This document shows, piece by piece, positions 17,622 to 60,605 of a stretch of DNA of 64,000 nt. The translations under genes were made by a program, and so were the position numbers. How positions within the stretch are numbered: position 1 is the first letter of the stretch; each line of letters opens with the position of its first letter. This stretch comes from Ascaris suum (lineage: Eukaryota; Nematoda; Chromadorea; Rhabditida; Ascarididae). Below the pieces are notes generated by a model. That model saw only the letters and a program-made list of their open reading frames with translations. It was not told the DNA's origin and ran no database searches. The stretch spans positions 3,550,501 to 3,614,500 of the forward strand of contig CM024191.1 of NCBI GenBank assembly GCA_013433145.1, read 5' to 3'.

Positions 17622-18640
17622 GCTACCTCGTGGCAACAGATCCAATCCGCAGTCTTTTGGGCGCGTGCCGTAAGACGCGAAATTTTAATAAGTATTGTCA
17701 TAGGTAGTCACCAACGGTCAGTATACCTGCTGTGGTTCAATACTCGAACACTGGGCACAGCCTCAAATGCGGTTCCCAACCATGAGGGCCTCTCTTCTCC
17801 TTATTGACAGTCAGCTGCCATGCAGCAAGTGATATCTTGCCCGGTTGTTCTCGTGTTCTTTCTACAAATTTGCAACGCCCTCTTCTTATGATCCACTGAA
17901 GTGAAACTGCAGCAGACATAAAGCAAAACAAGCACGAGCTTCTTCACTAATTCTCTGCCTCCTCCCTCCAATCTGTTTTTTTCCACAGGTCAGGTGCTTG
18001 GCAAGCATGCGTCTTTTTGTGTCGGAAGCGACAACAGATAAAAGCGCGAATCCCAGAGCCGATACAGGGTTCGGCCCTAGGTGTTCGGAATCCGAGCAAC
18101 AAATCATCTCCATTCTTTTGATCCTCGATGGTTAAGCAAGTAGAAGGGTGGGAGACAGGGAGGAGAGTCAAATTTCCGGTCCGCTGATCCCATTTTGTTG
18201 GAGGTATCTATTATCGGCTTAGCGGCTGAGGCCAATGACACAGTTTATAAATATGATGCGCCTTATCCTATCAGGATGCTAAAAACACGCGAATATCATG
18301 ATGGGCTCACACCCTCTCCATTACTATCAGAAGGAAACGAATATCACACTATCCGTCATCCTTTGAGTGTATTAAAACATGCGTGAAACCCTTGCATTGC
18401 AGTCCTGGGCTGGCCACTATCAACGGTTCAAGCTTTGCATTTCTTCAGCAAGCAATAAATGCAGCGAATGGTCGGCGGCAACAAGAACAAAAAACAACTT
18501 TCTTGTGATGACATCACATCGTCACACATCAAAAAACAACAAATAAAAACCCTGCTCGCAGGCTTTAACATTTCCGTTGATAAATCACCAATAAATACAA
18601 CACCACAACTGAAGTCACCCGACTTGGACAGCGTAATGAC
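17622..18640. other. Convergent intergenic gap between elongase and BRAT1-like gene
   Basis: About 1 kb separates the two stop codons, which face each other. I see no coding exon here. It must hold both 3' ends. I did not find a clean AATAAA on either strand that I would assign with confidence. Confidence 0.6.
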
Positions 18641-21600
18641 CTAGAAGCAATCCAGGCTCTCACTGAGACGAGGCGGCTGCTTCAGCTGTTCGAGCAGCTG
18701 CACTAAAATCTCCTCCGCCTCATTCTTTCCAACATGACGAGCTTCCTCCTTTCCAAGAGCTACTTCAGCGGCTTCGCGACAAGCCTTGTCATCCTCGTCC
18801 TTCTAGAAAGCTTTCGTGATTAGATCTCTTTTCCAAGAGAGGATAGCATCGAGGTTGCAACCCTAATGAACCCACCGTGCTGCGAAGCGAATCAATCATT
18901 TTTTCTTAGACGATCTGCCCATCTATCTTAGGCACTACGAAAATTTAATCATTGAAACAGCATGCTTTGTCTTCGGCCATACATCGCTGCACGGCGACGA
19001 GTAGCCTAATAATATACGAGAATAAGAGAAAGAATGTTTGTGAATCCTGAAAATCTTCCTTCAAACCGGGCAACTGATGTTTCCGGCGATTTTTTTTTTC
19101 AAATCGAGCAACGAAAACTGATTGGCCAACACCACTTTTAGAAGGCCTTGTAAAGCAAACAAAACTAATAGTCAAAACAAACATTACGACTCTCCAGGAT
19201 TGCTTTCGTCTCCTCGGCAATACTGCCGCCCATCTGAATCAGTTTCTCTGCGAACTGGATCGCCTTCAGACGGACACAGGGCTCCAAATCGGAGACCAGC
19301 CGCTTTAAGAACGTTTCCCTGAGCTTGACGCTGTCATCAAAATTCTCCAGTAGACCCTCCAGTGCGGCCACTCTTAAAAATAACTTAATAGAAATAGTAA
19401 GGGCCGTGTTGAATTGGTGTTATTCGTTTCGTCAGTGTTCCCCAACCGATATGGGATAACATGAAATTAGCCTTTGATATACAAGTCACAAATTATGGAA
19501 AGCCTCTCATCTATTACGATTTATATGCTAAAATAGTCTTCTAAAATATCACCTCTATAAATAGGAATTCTATGAGAAGATATTTTTCGAATATATCTAT
19601 AGCAGCGTTAATATCCTTGCAAGCAAGTCGGCGAGGGCTCCTAACTGCTGATCTGATTGCTGACGAGAAAGCAACTTCCCATCGCACTGAATATTTCGTT
19701 AAAACCTACTCAATAATGGACCAATAGGGGATAGTTGAATGTACTCAACACATGTGAGGATCTATGCTTCTTGCTTCTCTTCTTCTCTAGAACAAAACGC
19801 TTCATTTTATTGAATCTTTATCGCATAAACAATGCATCCACATTGCAAAAACCATTTCGCAGCATTGTTTTTTTGTTGTTGTTTTATACTTTTATATGAC
19901 TGTTCAAGTTTCGTTTATTTATTCGATTCCTTTCTATTCGTTAATATCAAGCATCCTTTTCTAAAGTACCCAATATTCATTTCCTTGCTGTTTTATTTCC
20001 CACTCATTTTCGAAAGATCAATTTAATGCTCGTTGTTTCGAGGAACGAAAATCTTTCAAATGCGTTTCTCTCATCATCACTTCGTGTTAACGTTGTCATT
20101 CGCTATTTAAACGAATGTTTGCACATTTCGTGAACACTTTTATGAATGACCTCTTCTTCTTTTTACTACGATTGCTCGCTGTTCATTTCTTTGAATTTCT
20201 TGAACTTGTTTCTTTCCATGCCATCGTACAACACCATTTGAAATGCCACTCTGCATGCTCTATATTTGAAGTCGGAATGGCCACGAATGGATGAGAGCGC
20301 TACTGGCTCTGCAAGAAATCGACGGCGGCATAAAAATTTCGGACACTTACCTCGACAGATACTTAGCTCTACGGAGTTCTCGTTTCCGCGCGATCTAAGA
20401 GAGAAAGGAAGAGAAAGACAAAGAGAAAATCGCACGGCTATATTCGAAGAAAAACGAGTGTCTCTTTTGTTAGCGTAAGTGTAGCTTCAAGTGGATGCGG
20501 CTCAACAAGAAGCAAATCAATGAACTAAATGACGTAATGTGAACCAAACATGTGCAGAGCTCTTTACGACGCTCGATCAGTTTTTACTCGATCCTGTGTG
20601 AACTAGGTTTCTAGTCGCATTTCCGGAGATTAACAGGCGGATAACCCATGGAACGCGATAAGCGTGAGGTGATAGACATGAGATGATGAGCACGAGGTGA
20701 TAAATTTATTCGCCCTTTTCGACCGTTCTAATGTTTCCTCCCCCCCCCCCCCCCCCTCATCTGCCCGGCGCTCATCTTCAGCTGATATTATTGTTCGAGC
20801 ATGCTGAAAGCTTTATAAAATCCACTGCGTGTTCCTAGCTTAGGTCAACCTTTCATACCGTTCTACAAACTTGCAACATCGTGCCATAAGCCAAAATATT
20901 ACTCGCCCCTTTTTAAGCGAAAACCAAATTTGGTTATTCGAGAACAGTTCAAGAAAGAGTTGGCTGCACAGGCCTTAGCCACGTCCACTGCGACTCCTTT
21001 ATCCTCGGCATTTGCATAAAAACATTTGCAGGGTAACACAAGACGGCGTCTTCCTACGAAACCCGGAAAAAGCGGGGAGGGAGGGGGGAGGGAGAAATCG
21101 ACAGTTTTTAAACATCCTACTTCGTAGATGAGCTTCTTCTCCCAAGATCATGTATCGCGACCAGGTTACCACCTCAGCAGGTAACAGGGAGCGAGAGAAG
21201 GAATAACAAACCTTAGATGACAATAACTCACGACCCACGCGCGACATGGCAAAATCAGGCCATTTTCTTCGATGCTTGATTGAGGAGTTCTCTTACACAT
21301 AAAATGTAAAAAAAAAAACTGTCGTCGACCACGATTTTGACAGTTTTGCTTCGTCTCACATCTGCGGATACTTTTATTCCACTAAAGATCTATAAGGATT
21401 ACCGATCTGTAATACTTGCTAAGCACTTTCCGAACGCTGATCCGCAACTCCACCTTCCAATTGAAGATCAATCTGCGCTCTCATGCCCTAACTATAACTT
21501 GCTTCGTGATCTCAAATTGTAATTACAGACCGATTTATAACCTTAGCTTTCAACCAGAAACCGAATTGTGACCTGATACTCAACACAAATCAGTCTTAAG

Positions 21601-24600
21601 TCCCAACCTTCGAGTGAGGGCCAGTCTGCGAGCCCAATTTTCAAATGTAAGCATGGCTCCGAGCCTTTTTCGACTGGGAATAGAGTTGCAACCCTCAATC
21701 TTCAATTAAAAATCGGTATGCGACCTCATTTGTTCGACGTTTTCCATTTCCCTCGATTTCTTTTTCTTTCCATCTGCTTTCACATTATCTTTTGGCTCAT
21801 TTGTGATCTCAGTCCTGAACATCGAAATGCGACCTCCGGCTATAGACTTCTAATTGAAGAATGGTTAGGAAGGTGCGAAAGCACTATCTCAAGAAATGGA
21901 CGCACTTCCTCACTGCTAACTGGAATACTTTTGCATCATCCGATGCATTTCTCTTGGATTGCCCCTCACCGCAACAGATGTTTCCCAGGCTGCGTACTTT
22001 CGCAGCCAAAACCCCATAGCTTTAGTGCACCATATTCTTCTGCACAACATATCACTTGTTGGCCTGAGTAGAAAGCTGATTTATTGGATCTGACAAGGTT
22101 AGATTCAGAAATATTCAAGAAGGTCAGTCTCCTGCAACAGTTTTAAGGAAAGGGAAGTTAGCAGTAAATGCCAGACAAGCTTGCATGGATAAGGTCTAGT
22201 TACCAAAAATTTTATACGCAATCAGTACGATAAGCTAACCTGGCACTTGGGTCGCAGTCCGAAAGAGCGATAAGCGTAATTTCTTCGAGTGCACATTGCG
22301 GTGCATGCCGAGCCATAAACCTGATGGCATCCACTTGGATAAAGTTATTATTGCTGCGTAACATCCTTCGCACATAAGGAAGCACAGGCTTATCTGTAAA
22401 TTAAACATCAATACTTCTCATAACTGTAGTTATAATATTTTCTCATCATTTTTCTCTCATTTCTTTCGTGGAGTTTTAAAAAAAGTAACACTTTTGGTCG
22501 TATGGCGACAAAAGTCTGAATATGTGAAACTCATGCAAGAATTGCAAGGTCGAAGCAGACCTCGCCCATATGCAATAAATCCTCAAATTTCACTGCCGCA
22601 ATCTCCCCTAATGCGAAGTGAGAGTAAGGGATATATGATGTGTGTGTGTATAAATGCTAAAAACTGTTCGAATCGAACATTCTACGGCGGTTTTTGGGCG
22701 CTTCATTTCGCAGTTTTCATTTTTCGGCATAAAACCAGGAAGATGAGAAGAGCTACAAACGGTGAGATGATTTCAATGCAGCAAAGAAAAGAAGTAATCA
22801 AATGCAACAATCAACACTGACGTTTGTACTAGGGAATCTTCATATACGGAAAGGGAAAATAAGCCGGTTTAGAACGACAGAAATGAACGAGTACATCAAA
22901 ACAGCAAATTAAAGCAAAAACCTCCCTCTCGCATTCGCTGAGAACCTCCAGGTAATTAAATAAGCTAGCATACCCCAGGTAATAAGCTACAGTTAGTATG
23001 CTGCTAAGTTCTGTCAAATTTGTGCACTGCAATATCCGACTTCAATGTTCATTGCTCCCTGCACATACCTCAATACTCCAATTTGCCATGATTCCCCTAC
23101 CAATCTAAAAAAAGTGCTAGAAAATCTTGGTTTATCATGATTTTAGAGCCATTTCTTATAGTGAACGCCCTACTGTTTATCATATGAAGCAAATATCGTT
23201 CAGTCAACGATAATCCAAACCCAAAAAATAAATAAAACTTACAATCAACTACGACATATTTATTTACGTATTCCAAGATTTCAAACGCTGCATCAAGCAC
23301 AGTCCAATCCTCTCGTCCGGAGCTCAATAATTCGGTTATCCTTTCAATAATACCAGGGACTTTCGTTATAGCCCAAGCCGGGCAGCTGTCCAGCAAAGAC
23401 TCGAGAAAGCGCGGGCTTACCTATAAGAAACATTTAGTTAAAATCAGCGAAATATGGGTCACGTACTCGAACAAAACCATCGTTTTTACCGAACAGACGA
23501 CAGAAGCTAAAGGGGGCATGGTGGTCATTATTTCAATTGACATAACGCATCTTCGGCAATCTTCTGATCTATCAAATCTCCAATATATATATGTGAATCT
23601 TGTAGTAATAAGCACCCACTTTTCAAGCGTAATACCAAAAAAAAAACTGCATCCAGCACATCGTATCAAATGTTTTGATACACTGCTCTCAAAATTTTCA
23701 TCCAGACAACTGCGGCGTATCGTCGAGGTGTATAGAACATACGTGAAGCTGTATATCGTGCAATGCTTAACAATACCACAACACTCATTTAAGCAATTTT
23801 TTGGCACTCTGTACATAGCCACCTTGATCGCTCTATCCGATTATGCTGTACTATATATGAGTCAACATAAATGATAAACGCTTATATGCGAGGATGTCAG
23901 GAAGTAATGGTGTCCGGAATTTGAAGGATGGAGGTCCCAGCACAGGTAGGCTTCTGATCGGAAGCGTTTGGCAACGTGGAAAAGGAGACAGAAACGCTCA
24001 CAATTTACCTGATCTTTGATCGCAAGTCTTTCCTGAGATAAACTCTAAATAAAGTGGCACAATTTAATTTAAGAACACTTACTAGCTCGACCTTCTTATA
24101 CAACTATGAGTTTTTTGGGGAGAGGGAGGAGGAGGGAAGGGGAACAGAAAGTTATTGTGACTGCCAGAATTTGACTCCATATCAAGAAAATGAAAGCCTT
24201 CCTCGATCATAAGTTCTTGAACACAATTCTGATCTTTTTTTAAACGAACTACGTTCAATATTCCCTCAAGCATTTGCACAAAAACATGACAAGTTCACAT
24301 AGTAATCACCAGCATAAATGATCTCTGGTCTAAGACGTCTCAGTAAATAAAAAGATTTTTTAATATGTACCTAAACTACTCCAAAGTGACAGATATAGAT
24401 CTGTAAAAACAGAAGCTACTCATGCAAAATGAATCTCTCTTTGGGCACTGCAAAAAAAAAGCCTCAGACTTCTATTCAGCCAAGTACAGGAATTGAAAAT
24501 TTTTTGACGACGTAATACTGTAAAAGGCAGACCTTAAAACTAACGCACCTTACTACTGCTTCAACAAAACTTTTCCGCTTAAACACAAGCCCTTTCCTAA

Positions 24601-27600
24601 AACGCTGGAAACCTTTGTATAAAGCATAAAGCCTCTCATTAACATGGGCTGGTGTCAACTCAACTGATCCATCGATACCTGGCCGCACAACTCACTATCA
24701 CAACCAGGAATCTATACAAAACTAAATCAGCCCATTGTGTAAAGTCATAAAATGTGGTCTCAAATATACCTATCTTATATATACATCCTCGAGCAAGGCA
24801 AAAATTAGACGCGCTCTTCTACCTAATAAAAACAAACATAATACTTGATGAAAAGTAAAGCACAAACCGTATAACGTTCCATCATAATATTAAACATTTT
24901 TTCAAATTCCGCAATCGTAAAAGGTCCACACTTTACGAGGAAAAGTTTGAAGTCAGTCGGAAAGCAGAAGCGACGATCGCCCAAACGTTCGATCCACTCC
25001 TTCTTATAGGTTTGCGCTGCCTTTAAAATATTTCGAAATTAAAATATATAACAACGCTGCCATAATTTTTGGCGCTGAAAATTTTTTCGGCAACTAGAGA
25101 ACACGCAAGTCATACATTAACGAACAAACACATTGAAAATCTATTGCGATCGACGAAGCACTAAGTCATTTCGCAAAACTGCTGTAAGTTTAGAAGAACG
25201 CCGTTGATAATTACTCTCGCAAAAATATAAAAAATATTGGTTCGAACTCTGGGACATAACTTCTGGAAGTAGCTTAATAAGTGATCACTTATATCCTCAT
25301 CTGCACTTGCAATAGTTAATGCTCAAGATGATGAGGTCAAGCTCAATCCATTAAAAATTCGATATTAAAGGTGATGAGGTCAAGCTGAATCCACTAAATA
25401 CTCAACACTTGTTAACATGCCCACGTTTTCGCTGCAATTACGGCAGTTTCATGATACAGATTCCTAGAGTCCTAAAGTCACATCATAATCCTTCAAGAAT
25501 GACAAAGACTGAAGTTCTTACTTCCAGCGTGATACACGAAAAAAAAAATCACTTTCAGGGGTAGCAGCAGCGACACAATGTGACCATCACCCTAAAAGAG
25601 ATCATACAATTGAGAACGAAATACCTCTTCACTGAGATGTGCGTAGGTTACCACACAATAACCCAAATGTGCCTCTGGATCTTCAAGTATCAACGGGGCA
25701 AATCGTCCCACATTGCTGCAAAAAAAAAAAAACAAATTTTTATACGCAAGAAAAATGTCTTCAGATTACAAATTTCAACGGCACTATTAACAGAGCACCC
25801 TAATCCCTCCCCCCTCCCCAGCATAAAAATAGGCATTTTTCGCAGCGATCACTTGTAAAGCAGTGAAATAACGATTTCCTTGCCCATAAAATACACAATA
25901 AATATGGGTTGCAACCCTACAAACTTCAGAACTGGCAAAACAGGGAATGAGATGAGCAGAAATTTAGTCGGAATCGCAGTGATTATAATGCGCCAATAAC
26001 TAGAAATTTATGGACGACAATTTCATCTAAATAACAAAAATAATTTGACAAGGCTTGCTGTAAACTTCATAGTGGAGGTCCTCTCTCAGAGGATATTATC
26101 TTCGATCATCTAAAACAATAAAATAGTGATAATTCCGCAAAATAACTTACCTCTCAACAAGTAGCTTCAAAATTATCAGCCTGAGTTTCATGTTGTTCCA
26201 TTTTTTCGCCTTAGAAATAAGTGAAAAATCGTTGGATTGAACCCTGGAAAAAACACATTTAGTTGAAAATTTCAGGAAAAAAAAAGATCAGCAACGAGAA
26301 ATAATGCCTCACGGCGTTTTCAAAAGAAAAGCATTGAAATTCACAATGTTACAACATTTCTCCTATACCGGATGATATTTAAATAAATCGAAACACAGAT
26401 GTGCAATGACCAAACAGTCTCAACCTTTATAAACCTCAAATTCCATTCACATTGCTCTCAAAAACGTCGCACCAGCAATCACAGTTCGCGATGAGGTTCA
26501 CCCTCAATTACTGACAAATGTTCCTTTGCTGCCAAATTTTAAATATTCAACCGCACTTCGACGCATAATTGACAGCCGTCTGCCCTCCGCTTTCTTTAAT
26601 TATACGTGTTCTTCGATATCATACATTCATAGCATCATAATACTGCACCGTAGAACATCGAAAATGCATTAAAATGAAGAGAGACAAGCGTCCGATTACT
26701 GTAAAAATGTGCGAATACCTCAAGCAGTCAATACTCTTTTACATATGCAGGATTTTAAATCAAACAACCCGTGACCCACAAATTAAGCTAATTAAAAAAT
26801 CCGTGCCCAAAACAGAAAGCGCTCGGAGTTTCCGGCGATGTGGGGATCGGCGTGGGTGTCTTACCCCCAGACAGCCTTTAGAAGAAGAGGAAAAGGCCTT
26901 CCATTAGGGCTACAAGGTTCAACAGATCATATCAAAACAAGCTAAAAAGTATCAGAGTAGCTGACAAATAAACGGTTCTTACAATTCAGCCCATCAGATC
27001 AACAAATCCCATAAACTGTAAATAAATAATATAACATAAACAATAATGGAATCATAATTTAACCGAGCCGACCATTCACTAAAATCATCTACAAAACGCC
27101 TCCGTACATATGAGATATGCTTATTCGAGCCGATCGGTTGTCACGTTCATCGGCAGATATTTAGACACTTCTAGGTGCCTCTAATTTCTCTTCAGGCTAA
27201 CCGATGAAGGTGGAAGTTACTGCAGAGTGCCACTAACGAAGCAAGGAAAAAAAATGGCATCGAGCGCAGTTAACGGACCTCCAAGAAAACTAGTGCAGCA
27301 TGCCGTCCTACGGTGTCTGCCAACTTATGTGACTCTCACTTTAGTGGTTCCCCATCTAAAATCATACGACATGCAAGCATACAAATCTATGATGACAGAC
27401 ATGACGTCACTACAATGCGTGTTTGCAATGCAAATTCGTATCAGCAAATTAGAGAAGCTAATAAAAATATTTTTAAAAAAAGAGAAAGAATGCAAAGTGC
27501 AAAGTGCATTGGAAGTGCAAAGCACCATAAATGTTGATAAAACAAGCGTTATGTACTAGATAAGTAAACACATTAAAAAATTTCTAACGCACATGTTATG

Positions 27601-30600
27601 TCACGAAATTTCTTTATCATGCCATTAACGCAAAGAAAATGTAACACGCTAGGGCGTTTACTATGGGAATAGAGGTTAAAAAACGTGGGAGATGATATAT
27701 CATAGTTACATTTACACAAACCCATCACCCTAATATACCTCCGCTATGGGCAACTATGTTACCAGAGTGTGTAATGCTTTCCTTCTGGATGGTTTCGTCA
27801 TCTATATGTGAATAAAGACGTCAAAATCTGAACGAGATTCAAAAACGATGAACTATCAGAGGTTGAAATCGCTGATCAATAAGGAATAATATTCGCAAAT
27901 AAAAAGCCCTACTAGTAACCCCTCGTCTCTGCTTCCTTAAAAGTTTCATTCCCGTAAAAAAATCGCTCATCGTAAACTCACTAAATTGGGCAGTAGAAAT
28001 ATGCGCATATGAAGCAGGTGAAAGCAGCAGCTGGACGACTACCACCTTGCTCGGTAACCCCTCACGGCATCGCGATTACCCACTCAATACTTTGCTCGCT
28101 CTCTGACAGCATCGAATATCTCTGGTTCGGTCCTTTTGTAGCCGACTGGCTTGGCGACCTCCAAGAATGCCATTTCCCTCATAGATGCGATGAGCTCGGT
28201 ACGTTCAATTAACAACACTAAATTAAATTCATTCAAAAAACTTACATGAGGCTGGAGACAAGTTTGCAAAAATCCATTGAAAGCATATCCCTTTCTGGCG
28301 CCAGCCATATAATCTGACGAATAACTTCAGGTGACATTTTCTTCGTCAATTTCAACAGTAAACTAGAGACGCTGCAAAGCATTCCAACGCTAATTACATA
28401 AACCCATTAAAAATACCCTTCTTGGAAAAAATTTTCGCACCTAAAACGGAAGCTTAACCAAAGAAAAGTATCCCTAGTAAGCATACCGACTCATGAGCCT
28501 AATAATGCTTGATCGATAAAAAACTTTGAGATTAGCTTATTTAATTTTTTCTTCTACATTGCAACCGATCGGACTCGTTTCGATAAACACTAAACGCTAT
28601 TTTTCTCACATTTTCACAAATGAGAGGTGAGTACAAAAAAAATTTTTTTTCAAAGACGGAAGATATAAAAACGAACCAATCGAAAAAACAACCACTGTTG
28701 GCAATAAGCGCCTCCACTAAAGACGGCAGCAACAAGTGAGCTTCGTTAATGCTACCACTATCGATTAATGCCGCCAAAAATTGCATGCCAACCTTGTCGA
28801 GCATCTCACCGGTTCCGTTTGAGCGTATGGCGCGAAGACCCAAATTTATCGCTTCTATAATATATCAGTTTATAGTTTTGAAAAAACCAAAACACTGATA
28901 TAAAAGAGTTCAAAAAAAAAGCGGAAGCGATCACCAGGAAAAAATATTTTCAAAAACCACTGAAAAAAAGGAAAAGAAAAAAACAGAGAACTGAATGTTC
29001 AACAATTCTTGCCATGAACAGAATATGCACGTGTATTTGGTTGCAACAAACCAATCGACTTAACCTCATGGGAACATCGCTTACAGCACCACAGAAAAAG
29101 AGAAAAAACTCGCTGAAAATAAATCAGTAGCAAGCGAACAAGCAGCAAGATTGCACTATGTGAACAATACTGCATAAAGGCTGCAATGGAAAAGTTTGAA
29201 GAAACCGGAACCGGAATCCCAGAAAAGTATTGAATACGAACCCTGGTACAATCTTAACAAACAGGACTCATGCGCAGCTCTAAAATCTTTATTACTGGCT
29301 CGGAGTTCACCTCCTGGACCTAGTTCAGACCTCGGTTTGGGACGGGGGAAGGTTGTTATAAAATTTCATTTTGTTGCTGAAATCTCGTTTTTCCTTCTCT
29401 CCCTTGATTTTTTTAATCTACTTTCGATCTCAGCCTGAAATAGGGCCGAGATTAGCAAAATACCATTCGCTCAAGTGCAGGATGATATTGAATTTAGCCG
29501 ATCTATGGTCCACCTTCGGTCAAACATACTTAGCCGTCTTTCTGACAAGGTTTACGACCCCTAATGCTTCAAGTGGTGCTGTTCTTATGTAAGATATGTC
29601 TTGATAAAAACGCAGACCATATATTAAAGTACTACTAATGAAAGTTGCAACCGACGCACCTTATGAACACACAGCTTCCCGAGCTATAAGATAAGGTCTT
29701 TTCATAGTTTCATGCCGAAAGAAAGATGCTGCCCAGAAAGAAACCAACCAGTTGGGATATATTCTATTTCCCACGGCACCTTGTCTTGTCTATATAATAG
29801 AGAAGTAAATAAAAGCAGCAAATCGATTCACCATGCTTCCACGAGTACTTCACATCATATATTTCGAGTATCGTCGCCGCCTCAAGCACTTGGGTGAGAT
29901 AAGTAAAACGAACGCCACGTCGAAATGTATTAATGAAATTTTCAATGAATGGGCTCACCTTAGCGCTCACTAAGTCCACAATGACTTCGTTACGTTGCAG
30001 TGCCTATAAATTTCGAAGAAACAATGAAATCTGTCGGCATTTTCAACGCTAGTTTACAAAAAGAAACCAACTATCAAAAATACCTTTAAAAATGTCACAT
30101 TCAACTTATTCACTTCGACAGGACGACTGATCCGATGTGACAATATTAGCACAAAAATTTGCAACAGGAGAAACTAATTTTAGTATCATCGTAGCTATTA
30201 GTGCTATCATCATCAATAAAATACGTTCGCGTGGGATATGAATCACCAAGCACGAATAGCTTGTAGATGAATTCGATCGACAGAGTTTCTCTAAGAAGTA
30301 GCCCTACTACTCTGTTGTAAAACCCAAGAAAAAAATTTCAAGAAACATAAATGTAAATGAATCACTGACAAGAACTATATTTCGTCCTTGCTTTCTGAGC
30401 TAAGGTACCTAAAGGCTTCATGTACACACTCCTAGAACAACCGATATTTCAAAGAAATCAATCATCAATCTGTTTCCCATTAGAAATCATAGCTTAAGCT
30501 ATTCGCTTCAATGACTGTATAGCAAACAGAAAGCAAAATAACGAAATTCTTTGCTTAAATCATCACATATTGAATTGTTTTATGATCACATAGAAAATTA

Positions 30601-31620
30601 GTGGATCATTCTGACATCTAAAGAATATTTCAATTAAAACTGACCGTTAAACATTAATTTCGACAATATAATACTAATACATAAGTTCTTGCATGAAATA
30701 CTGACAGAAATCTAGCATCGGCTAGTCCAACTGGTCGAGAGCAGTGGTCATCTATATCGATACTTCCATGAAGCACCAAAAATATAGTTAACTTTCTAAA
30801 ATATGCGAAGAAATATCTCACCGCTACTATCAGCTGCATTTTCAAAAATACAGCGGTAGGATGATTATCGCCCGTAATCTTCTCGAGTGAATCCACCAAG
30901 GCGTCGGTCATTCTAGCATCTGAATGAAAACTTGCTCTTTTTAAGCATTAGTGGCATTAATTCGATAACAACGTCAATAAAATTAAACTTCGAAAAATAT
31001 TGGAATTGAGCAGAAGAATTGGTGCATAATCCACGCGATCCATTAGCCCTTTGCAAAAAAAAATTGAAAAAAAGGAGTGGAGATAAACCGCTTAGGCTTA
31101 GAAAAAAAGATGACAATGAGCTGCAAAATTTGACAGCTGCCCAAACGGAAACGCCTAAACGGATGAAACAACAAAAGAAATAAGGTAATACAAAAACTTC
31201 CTAGGAGCATGACATGAAAAAAGGACTTTTTTGATGACATTCTTAAGTTCAGGAAAGTCGGCCCACTGGAAATGTTTCTGTGGCAACTAGACTTCGTGCT
31301 ATACGAAAATTAACGCTGGGAGAAAATAGCTTACTGCTATTAGTGAGTACAGTGTGCTATCACCTTCGCCTTATTTCCTTCAGCTCAAGCTCAACTTAAT
31401 TGAGGTGCGAAAAATGCGCTGGCCACACTTTACTCTGCTCATAATGGCATAAATGAAAAATCAAAAAAAAAAAAAAAAACAACTGATTCTCAATCATACC
31501 GAATTCGATACAGGCACTCAATCGACGGGCGTCAGCCTTGCTGATAAAATAGCCGAAAAATGGGTCTGTGGATGCCTCAAGCAATTCTTTGAAGTGCTGG
31601 AAGAACAAATCCGATCCCAT
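18641..31620 (-). CDS. HEAT-repeat protein, probable divergent BRAT1 (INTS11/INTS9 partner)
   Basis: A long minus-strand gene built from helical-repeat exons. Phase-linked exons: 31620-31500, 30919-30822, 30003-29849, 29634-29530, 28854-28677, 28371-28246, 28177-28091, 26243-26151, 25715-25625, 25020-24868, about 24680-24554, about 24270-24160, a short piece near 24108-24088, 23420-23243, 22393-22240, 19372-19188, and the last exon 18802-18641. Estimated length is 700-750 residues, near the 821 of human BRAT1. Repeats are clearest near the C-terminus (23420-19188), where alternating amphipathic helices read as HEAT units. The last exon is acidic then helical and ends SLDCF-stop; human BRAT1 ends in DCY, a tail known to enter the INTS11 active site. 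Start: a TTTCTTGCAG acceptor lies 2 nt before ATG 31620. Unresolved: the 29530/28854, 24554/23420 and 19188/18802 links (possible small exons at 29155-29085 and 18934-18912). The family call rests on length, repeats and tail, so another HEAT protein is possible. Confidence 0.6.
19373..22239 (-). other. Large intron of the BRAT1-like gene
   Basis: A 2.9-kb intron between two phase-matched exons (CCAG|GTTAGC donor and TTTTTAAG acceptor). It holds a 17-base C run at 20740-20756 and, around 21400-21750, loosely repeated phrases of the type 'tctgcgacctca', spaced roughly every 35-60 bases, that may be an old decayed tandem array. No gene was recognised on the plus strand. Confidence 0.5.
20740..20756. 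repeat. 17-base C homopolymer
   Basis: Uninterrupted C run in an AT-rich intron. Similar G or C runs of 10-16 bases occur at 9452-9463, 35394-35405, 36600-36609, 36851-36866, 39577-39586 and 48811-48823. Confidence 0.9.
25327..25410. repeat. Short imperfect tandem duplication
   Basis: The phrase 'gatgaggtcaagct', followed by a similar AT-rich tail, occurs twice about 43 bases apart within an intron of the BRAT1-like gene. This is a recent small direct duplication of about 38 bases with a few mismatches. No function is evident. Confidence 0.7.
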
Positions 31621-31637
31621 AGCTGCAAGAAATTATT
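31621..31637 (-). promoter_or_regulatory. Probable spliced-leader acceptor of the BRAT1-like gene
   Basis: Read on the minus strand, TTTCTTGCAG is followed by CT and then the ATG of the first exon. A 3' splice site 2 nt before the start codon leaves no room for a normal 5' UTR, which is the pattern of trans-spliced nematode messages. Confidence 0.65.
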
Positions 31638-44000: not shown

Positions 44001-47000
44001 TCTCAGTGCCTTGTCGGTTAACGAAGTCGGTAAGTTGTGCACCACCAATCGTAACGGCGAGACAAACCTGAACTACAAAGGCAGTTAGATCCGGTATTAT
44101 CATACAGGTCTAACTGAACCACGCTAGTTTACAAAGAAATTATGAAGCGAAAGAAAAACACATGAAAACACATGGGGGCTACAAGATACAAAAAATAAAC
44201 GCGCCTCTTCAGACAGCGCCCTCGAGAAAGAAGACGTCTACAGAATTGCCTCTAGATGCTTAATTAGCTCAAAGCGAGTAGCCCACTTGGAAAACATCGA
44301 GCTTATTGCGTTCCAGCGAGAAAATGTACGAGGAATCACAGGGAATGTTCGAAGGAAGTAAGGGATCGATTGGAGAGTGAAAATTTGTGCTTTTTGAGTC
44401 AATTGTGCCCTCTTTGATTCTCTTCTATTTCCAATGACATTTAATATTATTAGTGAACTGAACACAACTAACATATGCAAATTGCGTAGCTTGGCCTTTG
44501 CAGCTAGCGCAAGCTTTGCTCTCTTCTTCGCATCCATTTCGCTCATCCCCTTCGCCGCTGCCGTCCCGGCACGCACAATCCCCACTCGTAACAGATGCAA
44601 ATTCCGTTTATCTTTCAGTCTTTTCTTTAAATTTTCCTATAAAACGAATAAATTTGCAGTTATAACTAAGAACGATGCAATTGCATGACTAAAAATATAA
44701 AAACTGCATACAACTATGCAAGTCTCAGGATTTATAATTTCACGTCTTCTCTTCATCTAAACGAGTAAGTGAACCTTTTCCACGCAATAAATGTGTGCTG
44801 ACTTCTCCGATTGAGTGTGCCTAATACCGGCATATTTGAACGAATTCCGCTATCACATTATAAGATCACTTTAAAAATGGCTTCAGATACCGGAATATGA
44901 ATTAGACAAAAAAAATTTTAAAAAAAGGGCAATCGCTGAAGAAATGAGTCGAATTCCTAAAATAAAACGAGAATACACATAGCGCTAAACAAACATAGCC
45001 CACAAACATCTCAACCGCGTCCACTAGTCTTTTGATAACGGTGTTATTTAAATGTCGGATATCACTGATAGCAATCTACTCTAAGTGAAATATTCACATA
45101 AAACATATAACTAAGCATGCAATTTCATATGGTCTTTGATAAACTAAGGGAACCTCAAAAAACACCATGACAACAACAGAAAGCAATACTGAATTAGATT
45201 AAGATGGAAGAAAAAAAAAGCATGAAAAGAGGCAGAAGAGAACCTTCTCAATCGCAGCTGCATCATTTCTTGGTAATGCACGATGTCCAAATATCCTCCG
45301 ACCATCGATCGTCACTCCCGGATCCTCCAAATAAACTTATTCAACATAGACATCTATGGATGAACACCTTCGAGGGAACAAGTTGATATCACTCAAGAAC
45401 ACACCCAAATACGACCGACAATACGAACAACGAAGTAAGCAGCAATTTTCGCAGGCAGCATTCAAAACTTTGTAAGGTGATGCATCCTTTTCTTTATGAA
45501 CTCTTCTTGAATACTCGTTGCAATGCACATCGAGTGATTTATCTGACAATGGGCATTTACACAAAACAAAACCTAAATCTACACACGGAAGTACTGTGGC
45601 TATCCGCTTGCCTACGCGAACCTATACTTCATCACGTCATCTTTCAGCTACTCTTTCCTTCTTCACTCTGTACTGCAGGCCAGTGAGCCTAACAAAATTT
45701 TTACGAATGTGTCATTCGATTCTGTAAAAATTTTCGCAAAAATTTACCCACAAAGCTTATTTAAAAAAGAAGAAAGAAATGAGACGAACAGTTGTAATTG
45801 CATCGAGACATGTGTCTGCGTCACTTTTCGACTCGAAATATACGAATCCACTTCCTTTTGAATGATCGCTATCCGCGTAACGACAAATTATCGCCAATTC
45901 GATCTGGCCAAACTTCGATAATGCCTCTTTTAGCATTTCATCGGTCGTTTCATACGTCATATTTCTAAACTTGAAATTCCATTAAAAACAGCAATTAAAA
46001 TAAGGTAGCCATTGCAAAGAATTAATTGCTCGTTTTACTTGATACATTTACCCATTAAATTCCAAATCTCATTAACAAGAATAAGCTTACTATCAACAGT
46101 AAATATTTTTTAAAACGTTGTGAACGACCTGAACAAACAATTGTTAATAAACCACTAGAAAAGAACTGCCAATATAACAACTGTCAATGTGGAAATCCCA
46201 CCGAAAAACGTCGAGTATAACCGTCAAGTATCTCTATTTATATTGCATCATAGTCGATGAACAGAGAGAAGACATCGATATAACAGAGCACCACAACGGC
46301 TAATATACATTTTTATTTGATGCTTACAAATAATGCTTCCTCAATCTACTTGATTCTTCATGTGTGATAAATAAAAGCAAGATGAATGAGCTGAGCAATT
46401 AGAAAGCCAGCCGTGGATATCCTACTCCTGCTTTAACTCCCCTCCCCTCTCCCCACCGCTGCGGCAATACTCCAGTTACACTCAAATAAAAGAGCAATGA
46501 GGGTTGCTGCTAACCTAACGAAGACAACACGATGTTGCTGGATCGCCTCGTTTGGCTTCGATTCGCACTCACTTTGTTTTCTGTTAGAAAAACCCTCGTG
46601 GGATTCAAGCTTATCTCTTTCTATTTCATCCTCACTAGGCTCTTCACTTGCACTTTCCTCGTTCTCGTCCTCTTCATTTCCTCTGCTGCCTGACGCTTTC
46701 TCAACATCCACTTTTGCCTCAGGGCTCTTCACTTTTATTCCTTTCTTTTCCTTCTCCACTGTCCTTTCTAAAAAATCATATCGTTGAATTAGGCAAACCA
46801 CTCAACACTGAGCAAGGCACTGCGAACTATTTAAAATCGAAACCTAACTTTGCATAATAAGCAAATTTCACAAGTAAAGTCATACAACACTACAAAAAGA
46901 CTGTCACTGAATAAGAACGCTCACTTAATCAAAAAAAACGCGTAAATAAAATCGGTTACTTCCACTAAGCGCAATACCTTCAAAATTGGCACTCTCATAG

Positions 47001-50039: not shown

Positions 50040-51065
50040 TTGGTGCTACTTCAATTGTGGAAGAAATCAGAGATGTGCTGTTTATGTCTGACGAGGTGGC
50101 GAGGAAAAGGATGTAAGGAATATGGCCTATCGAGCCAGATGTAGCTATTTCATCGAAGTATCCTTGTCAGCCGGAACAGGCGCAAAACAAGGGAACATTA
50201 GTTCCCGACATCCTTATCAACTCTCGAAGGACTCTTGAGAAGATGGAGACTGCAGATGGTTTCAATGTATTCAGCAAATAACTCCAAATGCTTCTCGTTG
50301 CGGACGAAGTGGTACTCATTGCCGATGACCCAAAAAACTTGCAGTATTCACTGAACGAGCTCAACAAGAATGCCAAGAAAATTGGGCTCAGCATTTGCAA
50401 ATGCAAAACGAAGTGGATGAAAAATGCGTTCTGTCGCTAGTTTCTCAGGAAGCTCGATAGTGAAAATATCGAACTTGTGGAGCCGTTTGTACACTTAGGA
50501 TAGACTTGCAAATGAGCGGCGATTTGGGTCAGGAATTAAGCAGATGAAAAAGAGCGCATTGGCTAATATTCACCAAGCTCAACGATGTCTATTGCGACCC
50601 AATGATAAAAATGTCCGTAAAGGAGAACTCTTCACTTCGACGGCCATCCCTGTTCTTCTGTGAGGAGCGAAATGTGAAATATCAGACTCGCTGAAGAAAA
50701 CAAAGTAGCAACGACCCAGCGAGCAATGGAAAGGGGAATGGAAAGTATCAACAAACTGCAACACACCACAAACGAAGAGTTGCGTTCTGGATCCGCTTTG
50801 AAGGATATCGTTGAAGAAATGTACAAAAGAAAACTAAGGTAAGCTGGTCACGTAGCCAGGTTAAATGACTATAGATGGACTAAGTAAATCTTCCAGTGGT
50901 AACCAAGAGACGTAAAACGGTCACGCGGCAGGCCGCAACAAGGGGGGAGGACCCGCTGAGGCGCATATATGTAGTTACTTGGATGCGGAGGGCTCAGGAT
51001 CGCTGTAGATGGAAGAGTTGCTAGCTGCATCGATGGGGGGAACGATGAAATCGACGAAATCACGG
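50040..51065 (+). pseudogene. Decayed non-LTR retrotransposon reverse transcriptase, 3' part
   Basis: Relic of the palm, thumb and C-terminal region of a LINE-type reverse transcriptase (CR1/RTE-like). The plus strand shows, in shifting frames, a line like ADEVVLIADDPK with a following NELNKNAKKIGLSI helix near 50300-50400 (the catalytic FADD box has become VADE), then the thumb and, near 50820-50935, the AGHVAR-N-RWTK and PRDVKRSRGRPQ signature typical of these elements. Several stop codons and frame breaks mean that it cannot be translated. The 5' end (endonuclease, fingers) is absent, as expected for 5'-truncated LINE copies. It lies inside the inverted-repeat element. Confidence 0.75.
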
Positions 51066-58900: not shown

Positions 58901-59365
58901 ATAATGTTGAAGGACAGAAGAGGAAAGCGAAACAAATTTGTGTCAACTTAGCTCGGTTTCTAGCGCCGTTTTGGTTTTTTGTTTGAGATACTCAAGCCCG
59001 AAATTTCGAACAAGTACCAGAATACCAGGATAACGAGACCACCAATGGAATTCTAGAGCAACCTCAGTACGCCAACTACATATCCAGTAGAATTCACTTT
59101 GCAAGAATTGCGGAACATGTCGAGTCTTAGTTTGTAAGTAGTGTAGTTGCGATTTACATGCATCCAGTCAACCAATTTTGGAGGCGTTGAAGTGGGAACG
59201 AATCGAATTCATCCTGTGTTCATGGTGTTTAAACCCACTGATCACTGACCACATCCATCCCAGTATTAAAAACAACATATTTCCTTGCTGATCCTGTACC
59301 ATTTGTTTAAAAACAAGTATTAACAAAAGAGAAATGAGGAGAACGTTTTCAAGAAGTGGTGGGGT
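52962..59365. other. Gene-free stretch
   Basis: 6.4 kb with only short unrelated frames (the longest are about 98 codons at 53087-53383 and 106 codons at 56326-56646, both without resemblance to known families). Nothing supportable was found. It may include promoter sequence for the ACBP-like gene. Confidence 0.5.
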
Positions 59366-60605
59366 ATGGATTTCGACGTGGCTGCAGAAGAGATGAGAAG
59401 ACTGGCGAGAGAACCAACTGAAGATGAGAAGCTCCATTTGTATGGCCTTTACAAGCAAGCCATCCACGGCAACATTCCTCCTCAGGATGACTATCGTGAG
59501 TATCGGAATCGCTTTCGTAACTCCTTTATTACTGACTATTTCCTCTGCAAATATTCTCAATCTCCAATCGCTTCTTTACTACTTTTTCTCTTCTCACATA
59601 CATAAGTGGGTGCTAACTGTAATATAGAATGTTGAAGATTTTTAGTGTAGGCAGAGAGCAAGAATTTATTCATTTTTCCATATTATGACTCCACATAACG
59701 TCCACGCGCACTGGACAAGCACTGACTTATTTTCTCGCCTACTAAGACCGTCATGATGATCAGAAAAAAAAGTTGCAGATCCTCAAGTTCAAGGTCGTGG
59801 TGACTTGTAGGTTGGTGCCCATTTCTGACATGATCGTGAATTCATGTCAAATGAGAGATGGAGATAGAGGTGGGGAGGGCGACGGAGGAATGACAGTGGA
59901 GTGGAATTTTGAGAGCTTTTTTGATATGCTTGCATTCATAAACTACAATTTTGCGAAATTAGGCGGCAGTCTGAACAACTTATGGGAATGAGCGATCAAT
60001 GGTGAGGAATCATCTCAACTATGCAGACCACTCCATTTATGGAATAGGACATATACATAGAATAAACCCTCCAAGGTTTACCTTTCCGATGTGGATTCAT
60101 TTATTCGATAATTCAGTAAGCTCAGTGGAGTGCGTTGAGGATGAGTGCAGGAATGCGGCAGATGCGTTGAAAGAGTCTTCCTTAATGATACACGCTTTGA
60201 CGAGATCGGCCACACAGTCAAAATAACTCTACTCCTTGTTCGTTTTTTCCACCAACCATGAATTGCTTTGCAGATTTCCGACTGCCTTGTTTCCTCTTCG
60301 AAGTACTGCATTCTCCAATAGAGGACCTTTTATTCTCGCCATCCTATGACAAAACTGAACGCTGCTTGACTGACAGCTAGAAGTAGACGATAAATGCATC
60401 AATTTCTATATAAGTTTAAATATATCTACTCATGAAACTTTTTGGGAGCTTCCTCTCAAGATTATGCAGTATATTGTTACTAGAGAATATGAGGCAGAAA
60501 AGTGGACGAACTCTCTTCATAACAAAGCAATTCTCTTTTCAGCGAAACCCAATGCAGATAACGAGTGGCAATTACGAAAATACCACGCATGGCACAGCAA
60601 CTCAG
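59366..60605 (+). CDS. Acyl-CoA-binding protein, first two exons
   Basis: Small four-helix protein that binds acyl-CoA thioesters. Exon 1 is 59366-59495 and exon 2 is 60543-60605, joined in phase (donor TATC|GTGAGT, acceptor TTTTCAG). The product starts MDFDVAAEEMRRLAREP, then TEDEKLHLYGLYKQA at 18-32, which is the classic helix 2 with the acyl-CoA-contacting Tyr and Lys. Exon 2 gives KPNADNEWQLRKYHAWHSNSG, where the usual K-W-x-A-W stretch is replaced by RKYHAW. The region before it, with IPPQDDYPKPN, is not the common KPGMFD form, so this is a divergent paralogue. After exon 2 (phase 1) a third exon with the YIxLVEEL helix is required and was not found. It may lie further downstream or be too short to see. 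The 5' side TTTTCAAG near 59352 may be a splice acceptor. Confidence 0.8.

Follow-up and report, generated by a model that had tools for sequence, protein, structure and literature searches.

A HEAT-repeat gene of Ascaris suum whose last exon ends in Asp-Cys-Phe, with a plausible link to BRAT1

The closest described systems are the HEAT-repeat proteins BRAT1 of humans (821 aa) and CG7044 of the fly (FI02071p, PDB 8uic, with a chain of 974 residues). The BRAT1 mechanism was reportedly worked out in Mol Cell in 2024, by Lin et al. and by Sabath et al., with the C-terminal cysteine of BRAT1 said to reach the metals of INTS11. In PDB entries 8uib and 8r22 the C-terminus of human BRAT1 reads EADCY, and the DCY end that an earlier sequence-only reading of the DNA studied here had given for it was correct. 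DCY also ends 120 of the 120 BRAT1 proteins listed, which are the best 120 of 710 matches and where every row with an organism name is a mammal.

Spliced leaders go on most nematode mRNAs. In C. elegans, loss of Integrator disturbs the termination of both snRNAs and spliced-leader RNAs (PMC13131478). No nematode BRAT1 was found by name in the open-access listings searched or in passages of PMC13131478, PMC13335351 and PMC9418311. Here we describe a gene from a 64,000-nucleotide stretch of Ascaris suum DNA (hereafter, the window) that encodes a HEAT-repeat protein of 571 residues. From its sequence, we consider it slightly more probable than its opposite that this ascarid alpha-solenoid is BRAT1/CG7044-like, with a DCF tail that would enter the metal site of INTS11. 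The link to BRAT1 is thus plausible, and we refrain from assigning the protein to the BRAT1 family.

The HEAT-repeat gene and its ascarid relatives

The gene occupies the minus strand, from an ATG at 31620 to a stop codon at 18643-18641. Spliced in silico, its twelve GT-AG exons (Table 1), separated by introns of 305 to 2867 bases, produce a single open frame of 571 residues plus the stop, which is shorter than the 700-750 residues or so proposed by the sequence-only reading. The joined exons contain only one stop in this frame, the last codon, and 35 and 41 stops in the other two frames; the deduced protein ends in PPRLSESLDCF. The acceptor-like sequence found immediately 5' of the ATG may be a trans-splice site for a spliced leader. 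In Pfam, HEAT_2 was the sole family above the cut-off (E 1.5e-7, residues 445-535), which bears out the earlier proposal of a HEAT-repeat chain; together with structure models that are mostly helical, although at low confidence, this makes the protein a HEAT-repeat alpha-solenoid.

A search of 5.8 billion proteins retrieved two relatives, both annotated as HEAT repeat proteins: one of 563 aa from Ascaris lumbricoides (P0001; UniRef A0A9J2P10..., HEAT repeat domain-containing protein) and one of 414 aa from Parascaris univalens (P0002; A0A915AJ66, HEAT repeat protein). No further relatives appeared among the 7994 candidates sharing most words with the full protein, to which scoring was limited, or among 53 candidates for the dense region 236-352; in particular, the candidates scored included no relative from Toxocara, filarial nematodes or C. 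elegans, nor any from outside the ascarids. Likewise, scans of viral and prokaryote contigs with P0001 found no relative.

The gene is real, with twelve exons that join into one open frame, and most of these exons are backed by the A. lumbricoides and P. univalens proteins, from which alone the window could be inferred to come from Ascaris. P0001 derives from the same gene and is identical to the spliced model in their common segments: it matches at 100% over exons 1, 3, 7 and 11, and elsewhere differences are confined to the ends of matched pieces and to replaced stretches. It differs from our model in that exon 5 is replaced, exon 9 is shortened and the SESLDCF end is swapped for a downstream exon. 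P0002 is an orthologue over exons 1-9 (90% identity over 70% of the query, with 76 to 97% per exon), and differs in that its model stops within exon 10, in another frame. Neither of them contains extra exons within the stretches common to each and the A. suum protein.

The end of P0002, LWLGMHRNVHSKK, corresponds to exon 10 read in another frame (about 22280-22320 of the window, minus strand). Ascaris has an identical wrong-frame peptide, so conservation is good over this part of exon 10, but the C-terminal end of the P0002 model is probably wrong. In place of exon 5, the A. lumbricoides model uses an alternative exon (28091-28218, minus strand); among 1149 open intron windows, each 41 codons long, 0.7% matched or beat its codon score. 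By our reading this exon has no in-frame join after exon 5, and the P0001 residue at its junction is not explained by canonical splicing of the window.

Table 1. Features of the HEAT-repeat gene and of its alternative exons, in window coordinates
Feature	Position	Strand	Basis or remark
TTTCTTGCAGCT just before the ATG; TTTCTTGCAG two bases before it	31621..31632	-	Splice-acceptor-like (nematode type)
Exon 1, ATG start	31500..31620	-	40/40 identical to A. lumbricoides P0001
Exon 2	30822..30919	-	Spliced frame and comparison with ascarid proteins
Exon 3	29832..30003	-	57/57 identical to P0001
Exon 4	28677..28854	-	Spliced frame and comparison with ascarid proteins
Exon 5	28246..28371	-	Kept in Parascaris P0002 (95%); replaced in A. 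lumbricoides model
Alternative exon of A. lumbricoides model, VLLIERTELIASMREMAFLEVAKPVGYKRTEPEIFDAVRERAK	28091..28218	-	Coding-like composition; boundaries approximate
Exon 6	26151..26243	-	Spliced frame and comparison with ascarid proteins
Exon 7	25625..25715	-	31/31 identical to P0001
Exon 8	24868..25020	-	Spliced frame and comparison with ascarid proteins
Exon 9	23243..23420	-	Full length in Parascaris; shortened in A. lumbricoides model
Exon 10	22240..22393	-	Spliced frame and comparison with ascarid proteins
Exon 11, within HEAT_2 region	19183..19372	-	64/64 identical to P0001
Exon 12, with linker and SLDCF-stop after the last helix (helix by eye)	18641..18802	-	In-frame codon score and P0001 match
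Internal splice donor TCA/GTGAGA, last exon base 18664, would remove SESLDCF	18658..18666	-	Implied by P0001
D-C-F codons and TAG stop, proposed INTS11 active-site tail	18641..18652	-	Sequence read
Alternative last exon of A. lumbricoides model, to TGA stop (...RTREQPGKISLAAWQLTVNKEKRGPHGWEPHLRLCPVFEY), ending CPVFEY	17737..17861	-	P0001
Possible poly(A) signal (ATTAAA), lying past both candidate 3' ends	17684..17689	-	Sequence read

Comparison with BRAT1

Among the 6556 stop codons in the six frames of the whole window, only one follows Asp-Cys plus Phe, Tyr or Trp, and it is the end of this gene. From the protein's own composition, an Asp-Cys-aromatic end is expected at a frequency of 1.1e-4 per protein end, about 1 in 9000. 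By eye, the last helix is followed by a linker of about 13 residues and then by Asp-Cys-Phe, and this succession of helix, linker and aromatic end resembles the tail of human BRAT1; the human protein differs in having DCY where the A. suum one has DCF, at a 3' end that is disputed by a public gene model. If a genome holds roughly a hundred divergent HEAT genes, which is a guess, chance would supply about 0.01 such ends, and the BRAT1-like reading would be likely even if the presence of BRAT1 in nematodes were given only modest odds beforehand; sequence similarity that is undetectable and a gene model that disagrees bring it down again to about even. It is nevertheless the reading we prefer, since a HEAT protein will seldom acquire an Asp-Cys-aromatic end by chance. 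This tail is the sole BRAT1-specific evidence for the protein, but it lies at the stop of an independently supported exon.

If the protein is BRAT1-like, INTS9-INTS11 would be held by the solenoid soon after synthesis, and the C-terminal tail would enter the active site of INTS11, where the cysteine would bind the metals; the nuclease would in this way stay inactive and stable until its import and its joining of Integrator. Chaperoned assembly of the Integrator nuclease would then reach nematodes, and it would follow that three residues plugging an active site can persist longer than the scaffold sequence that carries them.

The foremost alternative, which we find rather unlikely, is that the protein belongs to another HEAT family, or is an orphan scaffold of ascarids, and ends in DCF by coincidence. 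The frequency given above for such an end on a given protein argues against it, and Pfam, PDB and fold searches did not match the protein convincingly to any other named HEAT family, a placement that the sequence-only reading had named as telling against BRAT1. The presence of HEAT_2 as the only Pfam family above the cut-off speaks, on the other hand, in favour of this alternative, as do the results of the sequence and fold comparisons that follow.

The sequence-only reading had expected BRAT1 as the top match in a profile search, and this expectation failed. Our BRAT1 profile was built from 16 mammalian sequences, drawn from the 120 listed, and recovered fly BRAT1 (8uic) with E 9.5e-10 as a positive control. 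When the A. suum protein and its two relatives were aligned to these 16 sequences, hhalign gave a probability of 0.3% (E 0.19), in a comparison of low power, with two close relatives only on one side and a profile without invertebrates on the other. Searches of PDB sequences with the protein, its tail or its three-sequence profile returned no BRAT1, and a search with the human BRAT1 tail returned human entries only. There were weak hints in favour of BRAT1. In the best hhalign segment, residues 258-291 paired with human 539-573, which falls within the block over which the human and fly proteins match each other, and the paired pieces lie about equally far from the C-terminus. Residue shuffles scored as high as the A. 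suum protein in 36 of 2000 cases (hmmsearch reported 996 of the 2000) and, with a human-plus-fly block profile chosen afterwards, in 31 of 5000 (2747 reported).

Smith-Waterman alignment to the BRAT1 profile, under three gap settings, gave scores of 42.4, 44.5 and 63.6, which were the same with or without the last six residues and were reached by 75, 142 and 65 of 3000 residue shuffles, respectively. As decoys we used sequences of PP2A PR65 and importin-beta, which share the helical-repeat pattern and, in the two versions used, lack an Asp-Cys-aromatic end. They aligned to the profile slightly to clearly better than the A. suum protein, with scores of 45.2, 47.8 and 66.6 for PR65 and of 60.2, 73.4 and 91.4 for importin-beta. 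Likewise, the score of the A. suum protein was reached by permutations of its own 38-residue segments in 1395, 727 and 404 of 3000 cases, by permuted PR65 in 2054, 2359 and 2198 and by permuted importin-beta in 901, 1550 and 1580. Since decoys and permuted segments score as high, the similarity of the A. suum protein to BRAT1 is that of any HEAT protein, in agreement with a coincidental end. The same controls led us to discard as evidence a hand alignment of WTVLDAAFEILEYV with BRAT1 WEVRDSALEFLTQL and of SDLEPCVRLKAIQFA with RDLDWEVRAQGLELA, which Smith-Waterman recovered at two of the three gap settings.

The precomputed Pfam family PF28344 is present on 120 of the 120 BRAT1 rows listed (best 120 of 710) and absent from P0001 and P0002; a BRAT1 protein scanned with the Pfam copy used did not match it either. 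Hence, neither hhalign, nor the decoys, nor PF28344 placed the similarity of the A. suum protein to human BRAT1 and fly CG7044 above that of other HEAT proteins, and it also differs from both in its smaller size.

AlphaFold2 models, obtained from a two-row alignment, had a mean pLDDT of 41.6 for P0001 and of 47.7 for P0002, where ten-residue blocks averaged between 60 and 86 over the first 90 residues. None of the Foldseek matches to these low-confidence models had an E-value as low as 0.001; fly BRAT1 ranked 38 for P0001 (E 0.052) and human BRAT1 ranked 13 for P0002 (E 0.17), in both cases among many generic solenoid matches. VIA-align, run with the P0002 model only, returned other solenoids, and the absence of BRAT1 from the 50 matches listed excludes nothing. 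The models were too weak to discriminate, and the fold results neither support nor exclude BRAT1.

The two candidate 3' ends

The sequence-only reading gave SLDCF as the last residues and made the membership of the exon at 18802-18641 in the transcript a test of its proposal. The frame of this exon does end in that way, and the A. lumbricoides model keeps the exon, sharing it and its frame as far as PPRL; that model then leaves before SESLDCF, splicing out the last residues. Because exon 12 and its frame are independently used by P0001 up to PPRL, the DCF stop follows naturally from a supported exon and was not picked freely by the sequence-only reading. What follows PPRL in P0001 fits, as read from the protein, a splice that leaves exon 12 at TCA/GTGAGA, with 18664 as the last exon base, and enters another exon at 17861.

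It is conceivable, then, that the transcript really ends as in the A. lumbricoides model, at 17861-17737 with CPVFEY, and that the DCF tail is untranslated, in which case the finding shrinks to an ordinary uncharacterised HEAT protein; we consider this improbable. Both sites of the implied join are GT and AG in the window, the ATTAAA lies about 50 nt past the stop of the alternative exon, and weak donors, GTTCGT and GTTTGT among them, are in use elsewhere in the gene. However, in a matrix made from the gene's own donors, the internal GTGAGA scored -0.9, below all of the 11 used donors (2.2 to 6.8 in sample; -0.7 to 5.7 leave-one-out), although only narrowly below the lowest of the leave-one-out values. 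Among the 778 GTs of the gene, 23% equal or exceed it. The alternative last exon also has the weaker codon score: calculated on 17862-17740, it was reached by 5.0% of the 1149 open intron windows, and that of exon 12 in its frame by none of them, both exons being outside the training set.

The same A. lumbricoides model may be unreliable, given that Parascaris keeps both exon 5, for which that model has a substitute, and the full exon 9, which it cuts short. In view of these other doubtful choices, and judging from sequence features, we favour the DCF end and infer that it is the one used. A more elaborate scheme, in which nematode BRAT1 keeps only the active-site plug recognisable and Ascaris switches this plug by splicing, read-through of exon 12 giving a DCF-tailed INTS11 inhibitor and the GTGAGA donor a tail-less isoform that would bind without blocking, seems very improbable to us.

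Other features of the window

The whole window contained no tRNA and no Rfam family reaching its gathering score. Outside the HEAT-repeat gene, the top codon score was that of an acidic ORF of 102 residues at 46454-46759 (minus strand), which had no Pfam match. On the plus strand, positions 50282-50821 hold pieces of ORFs (LQMLLVADEVVLIADDPKNL...) that by eye resemble a LINE reverse transcriptase; neither of the two pieces scanned matched a Pfam family. Also on the plus strand, an exon of an acyl-CoA-binding protein is found at 59336-59500 (Pfam ACBP, E 4.2e-9).
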